Below are positions 40,897-47,658 of a stretch of DNA of 64,000 bases, piece by piece. Position numbers and translations under genes: made by a program. A model generated the notes under the pieces. That model was not told where the DNA came from and ran no database searches. It saw only the letters and a list, made by a program, of their open reading frames with translations. The DNA comes from Lachnospiraceae bacterium (GTDB lineage Bacteria > Bacillota > Clostridia > Lachnospirales > Lachnospiraceae): positions 186,001-250,000 of the forward strand of contig SVEQ01000005.1 in NCBI GenBank assembly GCA_015057325.1, read 5' to 3'. The number at the start of each line of letters is the position of its first letter. Within the stretch, counting starts at the first letter, position 1.

Positions 40897-41042
40897 GTAA
40901 TGCTACAGCCACATATTTCCAGCGCAGACACGTTCTCACTCGGTTATTCACGCAGCGGTACTAAGTTCGCATTACATGCTCACTAAGTGCCGGCGTTCAT
41001 AAACGGTCTGCTTATGGAAAATATGTGGCTGTAGCAATTTAC
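40897..41042 (-). ncRNA. Candidate structured RNA/repeat element, copy 1
   Basis: Two arms of about 28-32 nt (40897-40924 and 41011-41042, core CTACAGCCACATATTT and its complement) enclose an 86-nt core (40925-41010). Read on the minus strand, the core matches copy 2 at 47519-47604 in about 64 of 86 positions with no gap. The arms do not match the other copy's arms. Within the core a 37-nt hairpin and a GNRA-capped hairpin are preserved through paired changes. It lies between a histidine-kinase gene and sppA, in the same direction as both. Class unknown. Confidence 0.6.
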
Positions 41043-41078
41043 AAATATTGCAATGAGAAGTCCATGGATTATATCCTA

Positions 41079-43835
41079 TTACGATAGTGTGGAATCAAGT
41101 TGTTCCGGTTTGATGTACTCAGGGAAGGTAATTACAACCTTAAACAGGTCTCCGTCAAGTTCTATGTCAAAGGTTCCTCCCATGAGTTTTGTAAGGTCCT
41201 TCGCAATCGAAAGACCAAGGCCGCTTCCCTCGGTTGTACGTGAGGAATCTCCTCTTGTAAATCTTTCCATGAGTTCTTCAGCACTTATATTAAGCTGTGC
41301 CTTGGATATGTTCTTCATGGAAAAATGTACAACGTTATCTTCTGCGGAAAGGTCAACGTATATACGTGTTCCTTCCATGGCGTATTTATATGCATTCTGA
41401 AGTATGTTATCAAGCACTCTGAAAAGTCTTCGTCCGTCCGCCATTACCATGACAGGTCCCGCTGCCGCCTTACCATTTAACGAGGTTACTATGTTAAGAT
41501 TCTTCTCGGCAAGTTTCTCTTCACATTCGCCAAGTGCCTGTCTCATTAATTCATCAAAGGATAACGGCATCATTGTAAGTTCAATGTTACCGGATGTCGC
41601 CTTGGCAGCTTCTACCAAATCCTCTGTTAACTGTTTTAATCGGTTTGCCTTCTGGTCAAGAACCTCTATATAATGCTCCGCTTCAGGGGTTGGCATTTTC
41701 TCTGACTTAAGAAGGTTGATATAGTTGATAATCGATGTAAGCGGGGTCTTCAAATCGTGCGACACGTTTGTAATCAACTCTGTCTTCATTCGCTCGTCTT
41801 TAAGCGATTTCTCAACAGCATTTTTAAGACCGTCACTTATATTGTTGATACCATCCTCAAGTTCTTGGAATACCGTATACTTGTTATTAAGAGCAACCTT
41901 TGCATCGAGGTCGCCCTCTGTTATTTTTTCAATTCCTTCTTTGAGTTTTTCTACATCCCTGATAAATCTTTTCGAAGTTAAAATTGTTAATAACCATACT
42001 AATATGAAAAATACTACAAGCACAATCATGCTCTTTAGAATACTTAACTTGCCGGTATACACCACATAGCATGCCCATGCGAGTATAATTACTTGGACTC
42101 CTATATAAACTCTTGTTAAAAATTTGAGTTTGTCCGTAATCTTCTTTCTGTTAAATCTTGCCGCGATTTTATTAATGATTATCATTTTTGAACCAAAGTT
42201 ACCAGCCTTAATTCTTCGCGCAAGACTAAGCGTCATTTCCATAAAGAATATTCCGAACGGAAGTGAAGAAAATACTACAATCACCATGGCCGTAATAATA
42301 TCAAAGCACGTACGGGTTTTGATTGTGCCGTATTGAAGAATAAATATTTCATCGTAACTGCTTTTGTTCAATGCCTTATTTACGATAAAAAATACAAGCA
42401 TTGCACTACCAACAACCGTCACTATATAAACAAACAGCCAAAACTCTGTTGTTGTTTTGTCAAACCATGTAAGTTTTATTTCCCCGCTGTCATCACTTTT
42501 TCCGGTTATTTTAATAAGACGTATCGCCTGAACAACCAGCAAAATCAATAACACTATCGTTCCGATTATAAAGAAGACAATATACTTACCAAACGTGTTA
42601 TATCCCCATATATATGAGACAGTGTCACTCACATCACCAAACTTAATCTTGTTCGGATTAAAACCAAAATACACCACGCTTCCGACTTCCATCATTCCAA
42701 GCCATTCTGAAACAGACGACTCCGACCACAATTCCCCTGATGCAATACGTGTCGTAGGCGCTACCAAATCGTAGCTTCCGTTCTTGATTACATAGGATTC
42801 ATAGTTCTCGTCATACACTATATCCTCCGAGCCTTCGACATTTGAGTAAACAATATCTCCGTTACCACCTCTTATATAATATTTGAAAGCACTGTCATCA
42901 TAAGAGTTGGCTGCCTTTTCATAGTCCATCCCCTGCTTATAACTTTCCACCGAGTCAGTGAATAAAGATACTCTGTTCTGACTCCACAAAAGAGGAAAAA
43001 TGATACTGCTTATTGATGCTGATTCAGTGCTGTATTTAATATTATTCTTTAATTCAGACAAGCTGTAAACATATCTTTCAAAAGGCGTAAAATAATCATC
43101 CCATGTCGAATAATACACATCATTTAACGGATCATATACGGCACAATCTTCACCTTCCATGTTCATATCCGTATTGGTATATTCATAATATTGCTCCTCA
43201 GTTTCAGAATTAACGATTGCAACATTGGTTTTTTCAAGTTGTTTTAAGCGAAGCATCAAACCCTCGGATTTGTATATTATGTATGCTTCCTCCGGAAAAT
43301 TATTGCTTAACCAGCAATTCGTATTTTGCAAACCGTTTTTCTTAAAAATATTGGCAAAAGTTTCGTTATCAAGATACAGATATTTGTTATCATATTCTCT
43401 TGCACTTGTGTTTATAAAGCTTTTTACCGTATCATAGTCGTATATATTTAATTTCTTCTCTTCTTCGTTTGTAACATAAGCATCCAAATCCTCAATATTT
43501 TCGCTTATGTTTCCCTCTGCAATCCTTGCCACATCATATGTACGTGCAACAGAATTGCCAACATCATATACCGTAAGCTCGGTATCATTTTTTCTCATTT
43601 CATGACTGACAACACTGCAAACAAGATTGTCGATTTCCAAACTTAACTTATTTTTATATCTCTCACAACTATACAAATCAAAGTCGTTGCTAACAACACC
43701 TATGCCGTATTCTGCTATGACATATACACATACGCCAAAGAAGAACATAAGCAGCATAAATGTTGTAATGCACAATATTCGTCGGGCAAGCTTGCCCACC
43801 ACACTATAGGAACGAGTCTTTTTTTCCTCTGCCAT
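41079..43835 (-). CDS. Large sensor histidine kinase with extracellular domain
   Basis: 918 residues from the ATG at 43835 (GGTGG upstream). TM1 (about 15-40) is followed by an extracellular region of about 370 residues with no recognised domain, then several membrane segments (about 415-610), a HAMP-like segment (KLKEGIEKITEGDLDAKV), the H-box SHDLKTPLTSIINYINLL, and an HATPase with DNILQNAYKYAMEG and GSGLGLSIAKDL. It phosphorylates the regulator encoded just upstream. The genes are nearly contiguous. The signal is unknown. Confidence 0.9.
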   Translation of the reverse strand: MAEEKKTRSYSVVGKLARRILCITTFMLLMFFFGVCVYVIAEYGIGVVSNDFDLYSCERYKNKLSLEIDNLVCSVVSHEMRKNDTELTVYDVGNSVARTYDVARIAEGNISENIEDLDAYVTNEEEKKLNIYDYDTVKSFINTSAREYDNKYLYLDNETFANIFKKNGLQNTNCWLSNNFPEEAYIIYKSEGLMLRLKQLEKTNVAIVNSETEEQYYEYTNTDMNMEGEDCAVYDPLNDVYYSTWDDYFTPFERYVYSLSELKNNIKYSTESASISSIIFPLLWSQNRVSLFTDSVESYKQGMDYEKAANSYDDSAFKYYIRGGNGDIVYSNVEGSEDIVYDENYESYVIKNGSYDLVAPTTRIASGELWSESSVSEWLGMMEVGSVVYFGFNPNKIKFGDVSDTVSYIWGYNTFGKYIVFFIIGTIVLLILLVVQAIRLIKITGKSDDSGEIKLTWFDKTTTEFWLFVYIVTVVGSAMLVFFIVNKALNKSSYDEIFILQYGTIKTRTCFDIITAMVIVVFSSLPFGIFFMEMTLSLARRIKAGNFGSKMIIINKIAARFNRKKITDKLKFLTRVYIGVQVIILAWACYVVYTGKLSILKSMIVLVVFFILVWLLTILTSKRFIRDVEKLKEGIEKITEGDLDAKVALNNKYTVFQELEDGINNISDGLKNAVEKSLKDERMKTELITNVSHDLKTPLTSIINYINLLKSEKMPTPEAEHYIEVLDQKANRLKQLTEDLVEAAKATSGNIELTMMPLSFDELMRQALGECEEKLAEKNLNIVTSLNGKAAAGPVMVMADGRRLFRVLDNILQNAYKYAMEGTRIYVDLSAEDNVVHFSMKNISKAQLNISAEELMERFTRGDSSRTTEGSGLGLSIAKDLTKLMGGTFDIELDGDLFKVVITFPEYIKPEQLDSTLS

Positions 43836-43847
43836 TTTCAAATCCAC

Positions 43848-46024: not shown

Positions 46025-47419
46025 TTACTTGTTCACCTTAGCAAGTACATCATCGATACTTCCGGCATTTAAGAAGTAACCTTCAGGAATGTCGTCATGC
46101 TTACCTTCGATAATCTCCTTAAATCCTCTTATAGTCTCGGAAACAGGAACATACTTACCTGATGTACCGGTAAACTGCTCTGCAACGAAGAATGGCTGTG
46201 ACAGGAATCTCTGAATCTTTCTCGCACGTGATACAACAAGCTTATCGTCCTCTGAAAGCTCGTCCATACCAAGGATTGCGATGATATCCTGAAGCTCTTT
46301 GTACTTCTGAAGAATCTCCTGTACTCCACGTGCTACCTGATAATGCTCCTCACCAACAATCTTAGGATCAAGAATACGTGATGTTGATTCAAGCGGATCT
46401 ACAGCAGGGTAGATACCAAGCTCAACTATCTGTCTTGAAAGAACCGTTGTAGCATCAAGGTGAGCAAATGTTGTAGCCGGAGCAGGGTCAGTCAAGTCGT
46501 CCGCAGGCACATATACAGCCTGAACGGAAGTGATTGAACCATTCTTTGTAGATGTAATTCTCTCCTGCAAAGCACCCATCTCTGTCTGAAGTGTTGGCTG
46601 GTAACCAACGGCTGAAGGTACACGACCAAGCAAAGCCGAAACCTCGGAACCCGCCTGAGTGAAACGGAAAATGTTGTCGATGAAAAGCAACACATCTTTA
46701 CCACCCTGGTCACGGAAATACTCTGCCATTGTAAGTCCTGTAAGACCAACTCTCATACGAGCTCCCGGCGGCTCGTTCATCTGACCGAACACCATCGTAG
46801 TTTTGTTGATAACGCCTGACTCTGTCATCTCGTTGTACAGGTCGTTACCCTCTCTTGTACGCTCACCAACACCGGTAAATACTGAATATCCACCATGCTC
46901 TGTTGCGATGTTACGGATAAGCTCCTGAATAAGTACTGTCTTACCAACACCGGCACCACCAAAAAGTCCGATCTTACCACCCTTCTGATAAGGACAAAGT
47001 AAGTCAACGACTTTGATACCGGTCTCTAATATCTCTGTATCTGTTGCCTGCTCTGAAAACTCCGGAGCTTTTCTGTGAATAGGGAAAAACTCTTTACAAT
47101 CCGGAGCCGGCTTGTTATCAATCGGCTGACCTAACACGTTGAAGATTCTTCCAAGTGTGTTCTCACCAACAGGAACCGTTATCGGACCACCTGTGGCAAC
47201 AGCCTCCATACCACGAACCAAACCATCTGTTGGTCCCATGGCAATACATTTAACTGTATCATCACCCAAATGCTGAGAAACCTCAACGGTTAACTGTCCA
47301 CCGTCTTTGGTATCGATCGTAATAGCATCATTTATCTCAGGAAGGTTACCCTCCGAGAACTTAATGTCTATTACCGCACCGATAATCTGGGTAATCTTAC
47401 CGACATTTTTCTCTGCCAT
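46025..47419 (-). CDS. atpD: F-type ATP synthase beta subunit
   Basis: 464 residues, the catalytic subunit. It has the P-loop [18 protein letters not shown] as GGAGVGKT, the catalytic glutamate region [27 protein letters not shown] and [16 protein letters not shown]. Preceded by an unusually long 233-bp gap containing structured-element copy 2, whereas other atp genes are closely spaced. Confidence 0.98.
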
Positions 47420-47460
47420 ATATTTGTCTCCTTTTATTTTGATTCCCTTTTGAGGCGGTC

Positions 47461-47658
47461 TCTTAATCCACTTCCCAAATCGACTCTAAGCTGCATGTGT
47501 GTATATCTGTTCTTTGAAAAGACCGTTTACGACCGCCGGTACTTAACGAATACTTTGTATGAGTTTAGTACCGTTGCGTGAGTAACCGAGCGAAAGTGTG
47601 TCTGTCAAAGAATAGATATACACACATAGCAAGCGTTCGTCTTTGGATTCGATTAAGA
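47461..47658 (+). ncRNA. Candidate structured RNA/repeat element, copy 2, inside the atp operon
   Basis: Tight 23-nt arms (47495-47517 and 47605-47627, differing only by a G-U-type pair on the plus strand) enclose the 86-nt core 47519-47604. Looser complementarity extends to 47461 and 47658, where TCTTAATC pairs with GATTAAGA and includes the atpG stop codon. The conserved-core orientation is opposite to atp transcription. Hairpins: CGGTACT/AGTACCG with an inner ATAC-TTT-GTAT and a tandem G-A internal loop, and a GAAA-capped hairpin near the 3' end. Class unknown. Confidence 0.6.

Follow-up and report, generated by a model that had tools for sequence, protein, structure and literature searches.

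Two short stretches in the genome of a Lachnospiraceae bacterium raise the question of what kind of element they represent. They lie in a 64,000-nt segment of contig SVEQ01000005.1 (positions 186,001 to 250,000), hereafter the window. An earlier reading made from the letters alone (the sequence-only reading) described them as diverged copies of an 86-nt core that is either a structured RNA or part of a mobile element. The explanation that we put forward, with a probability of about two in three, is that both are resident copies of a family of MITE-like (miniature inverted-repeat transposable element-like), non-autonomous mobile elements that carry a conserved RNA module. The identity of the family as a mobile structured repeat is well supported. 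Because the alternatives weighed below are partly compatible with this explanation, the odds that we attach to them do not sum to one.

A dispersed family of structured repeats

The cores of copy 1 (minus strand) and copy 2 (plus strand) are both 86 nt long and identical at 64/86 positions, as first counted; the best other ungapped 86-mer in the window, on either strand, matches a core at fewer than 44/86. The 37-nt hairpin within the core was said to keep its pairing through five double substitutions around a constant tandem G-A loop. Sequences aligned in register with the pair columns confirm this, each of the five changes keeping a Watson-Crick pair, and a T.T mismatch is identical in both copies as well. 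The second hairpin also proved correct. It reads GTGAGAAC in copy 1 and GCGAAAGT in copy 2, with a GNRA loop (N, any base; R, purine) that is GAGA and GAAA, respectively, and a single stem pair that differs. Folding energies compared with shuffled sequences gave z values of -7.6 and -8.6 for the two copies. The opposite strand folds as far below its shuffles (-8.2 and -9.1), so folding energy alone cannot assign the strand.

Both cores are members of one repeat family, short, dispersed and present in many copies. A blastn search of the own genome (G000) with copy 1 returned 34 rows, 22 of them with an E value of 2.2e-5 or better. With a covariance model built from 15 copies (R1), the same genome gave 35 rows: 27 are matches that reach 2.1e-9 or better, and the remaining 8 are weak, partial and on the opposite strand of copies. 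All 26 genomes scanned in the genus, the own genome included, contained matches (1-109 per genome). A later model (R2), used for the family-wide scan, was positive in 107/250 Lachnospiraceae genomes, in 106/249 genera, and a scan of the phylum in 5/398 genomes, four from the same family (own genome included) and one from another; scoring in these two scans was limited, under stricter filters, to 14 and 9 candidates per genome, respectively. Loci from other genomes were mostly taken as the best listed matches. The covariance-model search that the sequence-only reading had proposed thus returned abundant homologues, with substitutions that respect the pairs.

A match to a known class was lacking in Rfam as well. 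At gathering score, Rfam 15 gave no match at the elements of the window, its sole match there being a ribosomal protein L10 leader elsewhere (2639-2788, minus strand). Among 13 further loci it gave only a flavin mononucleotide (FMN) riboswitch beside, not within, the elements of L053. Permissive Rfam scans of both window stretches returned weak matches only. Membership of a known Rfam class was rejected, since the elements scanned (window and 13 loci) had no gathering-score match. Cargo of plasmids or phages was rejected as well: positions 40909-41026 had no blastn match in 72,556 plasmids and 50,697 phage records. Viral contigs contained no exact occurrence of the hairpin pattern.

Substitutions preserve the fold

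Across the family, substitutions keep the fold, and the core and inner stem are structured. The alignment of 15 own-genome copies made without structure (A2) shows compensatory change in 25/40 pairs, against a shuffled mean of 13.4, and 96.6% of its cells are paired, against 85.8% after shuffling; on either measure 0/500 shuffles were as high. When the partners were slid by 1-3 columns, pairing fell to 25-43%. A larger alignment of 109 distinct copies, fitted to the model (A3), has 36/40 covarying pairs (shuffled mean 29.3; 0/500 shuffles as high). Its input was 97 loci, with the exclusion of L068, L076, L080, L082 and L088 (incomplete or weak), own-genome near-duplicates and copies with expanded loops. 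Many of its loci were picked by a pattern in the long hairpin, as were L048-L127 and L128-L163, so that conservation in that hairpin is partly imposed. Alignments A3-A6 were model-guided and hence favour G-U pairs. In A3, all four pair types are present at the modelled arm positions, and two arm helices are 95% paired. Helix columns 37-40 with 160-163 are paired in only 69.6%, which indicates that the form of this helix differs between subfamilies.

Probable selection on one strand

A plain DNA palindrome is expected to hold equal numbers of G-T and A-C mismatches, whereas G-T is better tolerated if one strand folds. Isolated mismatches were counted in 82 clusters from 158 of the 168 copies. 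Per cluster and position, the ratio of G-T to A-C was 69:22 in the inner 24 positions and 48:52 in the outer arms, the intermediate zone being excluded. For core pairs it was 43:12 (per cluster in the model alignment, with ten pairs of the arms and seven that align poorly excluded). In a second set, drawn from other genera and comprising 65 copies, the per-copy ratio was 32:11 in the inner stem and 23:29 in the outer arms. The excess of G-T in inner stem and core, absent from the outer arms, suggests that one strand is selected as a fold, with the outer arms serving as an internal control for mutational strand bias.

Pairing could also be kept without function by template switching at palindromes, with the core alone under constraint. 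The balanced mismatches of the outer arms agree with such a process, and so do the long, near-perfect arms that exist (81/86 aligned positions paired in L345); for the outer arms it is compatible with our explanation. The one-strand G-T excess of the inner stem in both sets argues against it, and as a general account we find it highly doubtful.

The loop of the mini-hairpin bears on the nature of the folded strand. The tally required G at the first and A at the last position. Among such GNNA forms, 84/84 cluster-loop observations were GNRA, in seven of the eight possible sequences, and so were 53/54 loops of the second set (per copy); "none" was recorded for 7 clusters of the first set and 5 copies of the second, and no anchor for 8 and 6 copies. 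In RNA, the third position of such loops is habitually a purine, and the near-constant GNRA loop therefore points to RNA. Together, the G-T excess and the GNRA loops favour RNA over single-stranded DNA, without proving it, and RNA-level selection on the head and inner stem is likely.

Selection on single-stranded DNA, e.g., on one strand in replication or transposition as at IS200/IS605 ends or attC sites, would also be expected to give a one-strand mismatch bias; G.T is better than A.C there too. The absence of an orientation bias relative to genes (see below) fits this possibility, and YGAR steps and GC-GNRA-GC mini-hairpins are stable in DNA as well. GNNA-type DNA loops, however, need no purine at the third position, which is where both sets are nearly invariant while the second position varies. 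Furthermore, the transposase domain Y1_Tnp (PF01797), found in 4/7 genomes searched, had no match in the drafts G000, G004 and G003, with 27, 54 and 57 element matches, respectively. We consider selection as DNA unlikely.

Terminal repeats and target duplications

The family is mobile, as many elements have terminal repeats and 9-14-bp target duplications. The congener G029 has 46 matches; 20 were read, and most extend over about 210 bp between TAGGCAATTGCGAAAC and GTTTCGCAAACGCCTA, or variants of these, with nearly alike arms. Terminal inverted repeats TAGGYRWTTGCGAAAC occur in pairs in G029 and in two further congeners (G008 and G028), and TTGCTGTTTARTKMACWTTTT in the own genome. Among the loci collected, 45/56 TAGG-ended pairs bear the core and are 200-219 bp long. 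We examined 57 TAGG-ended elements from congeners and other loci, allowing up to three mismatches in the ends and lengths of 150-280 bp. In 35 of these, a 9-14-bp sequence is duplicated in the flanks with no more than one mismatch (12 elements have 12 bp and 9 have 11 bp); among shuffled flank pairs, 3/1114 have duplications of at least 9 bp.

Ends of at least four types were found around the same core. Nine composites of the own genome that bear the core (529-829 bp) have TTGCTGTTTA ends, read at both ends, and contain nested hairpins without a clear duplication; six similar composites lack the core. The whole set (L224-L232 and L235-L240; six of fifteen coreless) spans 385-829 bp, and the end motif has matches close to many contig ends as well. 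In other genomes, the core is enclosed by further end types, namely CAATGTCATTAAGTTAAG, CATTTCGGAATTGTGTTCC and GTAACAGTTCAGCC. In G028, L419 and L421 have TAGG-type ends around a different apical module (TTTTTACGAYAGCATTAGGAACGTTAGCCGAGTAAAAA), with stems that differ yet pair, which suggests that one type of ends can carry different heads. Two nested hairpins of 577 and 524 bp in G029 (L431 128-704 and L432 101-624) have TAGG ends and an expanded core-like head.

The elements would move as DNA, with an enzyme supplied in trans that acts on their terminal repeats. No pair of TAGG ends had the spacing of a transposase gene, either in the places listed for G029, G008 and G028 or in the loci collected. 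DDE_Tnp_1 (PF01609), the domain of IS4/IS231-type mobilisation, was found in 0/3 genomes (G000, G029 and G012), which are drafts, so that this absence is no proof. The reverse-transcriptase domain RVT_1, which a retroelement mobilised by a resident enzyme would need, had no match in 9/26 genus genomes, including G004, G008 and G032, which are 98-99% complete and have 43-54 element matches. A resident Y1, DDE_Tnp_1 or RVT_1 protein as a necessary mobiliser was rejected, no match to these domains having been found in several copy-rich genomes. In genomes without an RVT_1 match, however, element copies may predate the loss of such a gene. It is conceivable that the head RNA itself takes part in mobility, with the transcript recognised or even used as template, which would make the elements bacterial counterparts of short interspersed nuclear elements (SINEs), or RNA-guided MITEs with exchangeable DNA ends; we give this little credence.

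Divergence of arms and cores

The sequence-only reading held that the arms of each copy match only each other. This is true of the two window copies and does not extend to larger sets of copies, in which arm sequence close to the core can be aligned and diverges through paired changes. The median arm pairing score in 158 copies was 23 for arms of the same copy and 2 for arms of different copies. Near the core, arms can be aligned over much of the genus, and by reading their purine/pyrimidine pattern is partly kept. The 14 copies of G119 differ by 4.1% in the core, with an identical hairpin tip in 14/14, and by 37-42% in the arms. Their own arms pair at 208/220 aligned positions, against 0.68 for partners from other copies, over a mean of 8.7 positions. 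The signal is weaker in G099, where the cores differ by 13.4%, the tips are variable and the arms differ by 54-62%; own arms pair at 0.79 and partners from other copies at 0.75, where the comparison covers a mean of just 6.3 positions.

Nine loci common to the own genome and its congener G004 were compared, and in four the core difference is at most 2.2%. The pair L009/L292 differs by 14.4% in the core, 15.1% in the arms and 1.9% in the flanks. L003/L297 has 14 core changes, all transitions, and flanks that differ by 10.4%. In the remaining three, window copy 1 included, differences are 11-25% in the core, 21-35% in the arms and 12-15% in the flanks. From these alignments we infer block replacement of cores, i.e., gene conversion, combined with a drift of arms that is bound to their partners. 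Within a genome, conversion would homogenise the cores, and the arms would drift along with their partners.

The main rival to conversion and partner-bound drift is that the core is a mobile module that inserts into the loops of pre-existing hairpins, the arms being the target and hence copy-specific. Similar cores within dissimilar but self-pairing arms in G119 would follow from this, as would the same core within several end types, and YPAL elements of Yersinia are reported to adjoin or span dyad symmetry (PMC2229807). On the other hand, the arms are alignable among the G119 copies and over much of the genus, less clearly in G099. In G029, core and arms moved as one between the duplications, and coreless TAGG-ended hairpins resemble, by eye, internal deletions of core-bearing ones. 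Core insertion is rather unlikely in our view. The related idea that the arms were copied from the target at insertion is weakened, since the arms of G119 proved alignable.

Gene context

Gene context was derived with a crude caller of open reading frames (ORFs). All 168 copies were placed: 61 are opposite to both neighbours, 44 have the same direction, 41 are mixed, 3 fall within an ORF and 19 at the edge of a locus. The 61 opposite and 44 same-direction copies indicate no preference for the coding strand. A role as cis-regulatory RNA of neighbouring genes was rejected as the main explanation because orientation is unbiased and the number of matches varies widely among genomes.

The hairpins might act in host transcripts, where they could be RNase III sites or confer stability, for instance, a role that has been proposed for NEMIS of Neisseria; the structure would then persist because it shapes neighbouring mRNAs. 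This would be compatible with our explanation. Location between co-directional genes, found for 105 of the 146 classified copies at median distances of 50 and 78 nt, is what such a role would suggest, and NEMIS sets a precedent (PMC2229807). The unbiased gene orientation, in the face of selection on one element strand, speaks against it, and we regard a role in host transcripts as rather improbable.

The gap between atpG and atpD, which holds copy 2, carries an element in 5/12 loci found by atpG similarity (own locus included, one a weak remnant). L265, chosen for its match, also carries one in this gap, and all six are opposite to the atp genes. The occupied gaps are those of the window (47420-47652), L033, L035, L037, L039 and L265, with constant orientation wherever seen. 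In G004, which is 99% identical in atpG, the gap contains unrelated sequence. In L040 (G009) it is just 41 bp long and begins with a TAGGTAATTACCTA palindrome overlapping the stop codon of atpG; by its appearance, two element ends were fused there by a deletion.

Proposed organisation and points against it

In the proposed MITE-like family, an intact element would be about 210 bp long, going by the type that congeners show best, with the terminal inverted repeats TAGGYRWTTGCGAAAC, an asymmetric inner loop and a stem of ~20-25 bp. The stem would carry a conserved head of ~90 nt, made of a multibranch junction, the long hairpin with its tandem G.A step and the GNRA-capped mini-hairpin. Head and inner stem would be selected as folded RNA of one defined strand. 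The element transcript might fold into a long hairpin, and its head could perhaps be bound by an element- or host-borne protein that favours spread or retention. Of the alternatives left by the sequence-only reading, a structured RNA is supported by covariation, G-T excess and the GNRA loop, and a mobile element, which might move through a folded form, by terminal repeats and target duplications. The reading is thus supported in part, and arms of different copies are not simply unrelated.

Several observations weigh against this explanation. Target duplications were not found in 22/57 TAGG-ended elements, and none was recognised by eye at TTGCTG-ended composites or at the two window copies. 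Elements with the core partly or wholly deleted are, by eye, also flanked by duplications, so movement may be possible without the core. A search by paired ends revealed no autonomous partner among the places listed in G000, G029, G008 and G028 and the loci collected. Concerning RNA, the 24-40-nt zone of the second set shows the reverse excess (G-T:A-C 5:16), and the ratio at 10-29 nt outside the model in the first set is 99:124 (all mismatches, per copy). Further pair types in A2 number 38, with no excess over the shuffled mean of 40.1. Finally, there is no coding-strand bias, though an mRNA-borne role would predict one.

Relation to known repeats

MITEs are usually defined by conserved ends. 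In the present family, the fold is conserved mid-element and carried between different ends, and much of the stem sequence has been let go. The family offers a direct test of why a parasitic repeat would keep an RNA structure. Structured and found in 107/250 genomes sampled within a single bacterial family, it has dozens of matches each in many of the genus genomes and no Rfam 15 gathering match where scanned, and a model of it would aid the annotation of intergenic RNA in gut bacteria. This MITE-like family with a conserved RNA-like head did not turn up in the sources searched.

In kind, NEMIS and YPAL come closest to the present family. To our knowledge, neither a conserved multibranch head with a GNRA loop nor hypervariable paired arms have been described for NEMIS/Correia. 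NEMIS/Correia elements resemble the present family in being short and non-autonomous, in having terminal inverted repeats and target duplications, and in transcripts that form long stem-loops (PMC2229807). The host differs, and sequences were not compared. YPAL/RU-2 of Yersinia are 168-bp palindromic mobile repeats that lie near dyad symmetry and have target duplications of variable length (PMC2229807). There, the duplications are 3-26 bp, against 9-14 bp here, and a terminal TA motif is absent, in contrast to the TAGG...CCTA ends of the present family; again the host differs and sequences were not compared. REP/BIME repeats with their RAYT (Y1) transposase are likewise dispersed intergenic palindromes. 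REPs are 20-40 bp long (PMC3733652), whereas the present elements are about 210 bp long, have target duplications and occur in three copy-rich drafts without a Y1_Tnp match.

Full-text literature searches, which did not reach into the supplementary lists of PMC8040213, brought up no description of the family. That study proposed candidate structured RNAs of human microbiomes by comparative genomics, 250/3161 of them palindromic. The likeness is that both are RNA candidates from comparative genomics, some palindromic there, and it is possible that the family is an unnamed entry in those lists.

Copies in the window

The features of both copies are collected in Table 1. By their ORFs, named by eye, the neighbours of copy 1 are a signal-peptide-peptidase-like gene and a sensor kinase, and those of copy 2 are atpD and atpG, with the element on the strand opposite to the atp genes.

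Table 1. Positions of the two element copies and their parts within the window.
Feature	Position	Strand	Evidence
Copy 1 covariance-model match, inner stem and core (core 40925-41010)	40909..41026	-	R1 132.5 bits, R2 122.1 bits
Copy 1 long-stem arm, first	40879..40918		inverted repeat of 40 nt, 78% complementary
Copy 1 long-stem arm, second	41019..41058		same inverted repeat of 40 nt
Copy 1 37-nt hairpin with tandem G.A step and U.U mismatch	40956..40992	-	sequence and pair columns
Copy 1 mini-hairpin GU-GAGA-AC, GNRA loop	40932..40939	-	sequence and pair columns
Copy 2 covariance-model match (core 47519-47604), between atpG and atpD	47503..47621	+	R1 109 bits, R2 107.2 bits
Copy 2 arm, first	47495..47517		inverted repeat of 23 nt, 96% complementary
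Copy 2 arm, second	47605..47627		same inverted repeat of 23 nt
Copy 2 37-nt hairpin	47537..47573	+	sequence and pair columns
Copy 2 mini-hairpin GC-GAAA-GU, GNRA loop	47590..47597	+	sequence and pair columns

Elsewhere in the own genome, two copies lie in opposite orientation within about 450 bp (C20:123141-123254 and 123429-123594; L014). Five own-genome loci (L010, L018, L014, L027 and L028) have extra hairpin sequence in the mini-hairpin or at the tip of the long hairpin, in cores that are otherwise normal.

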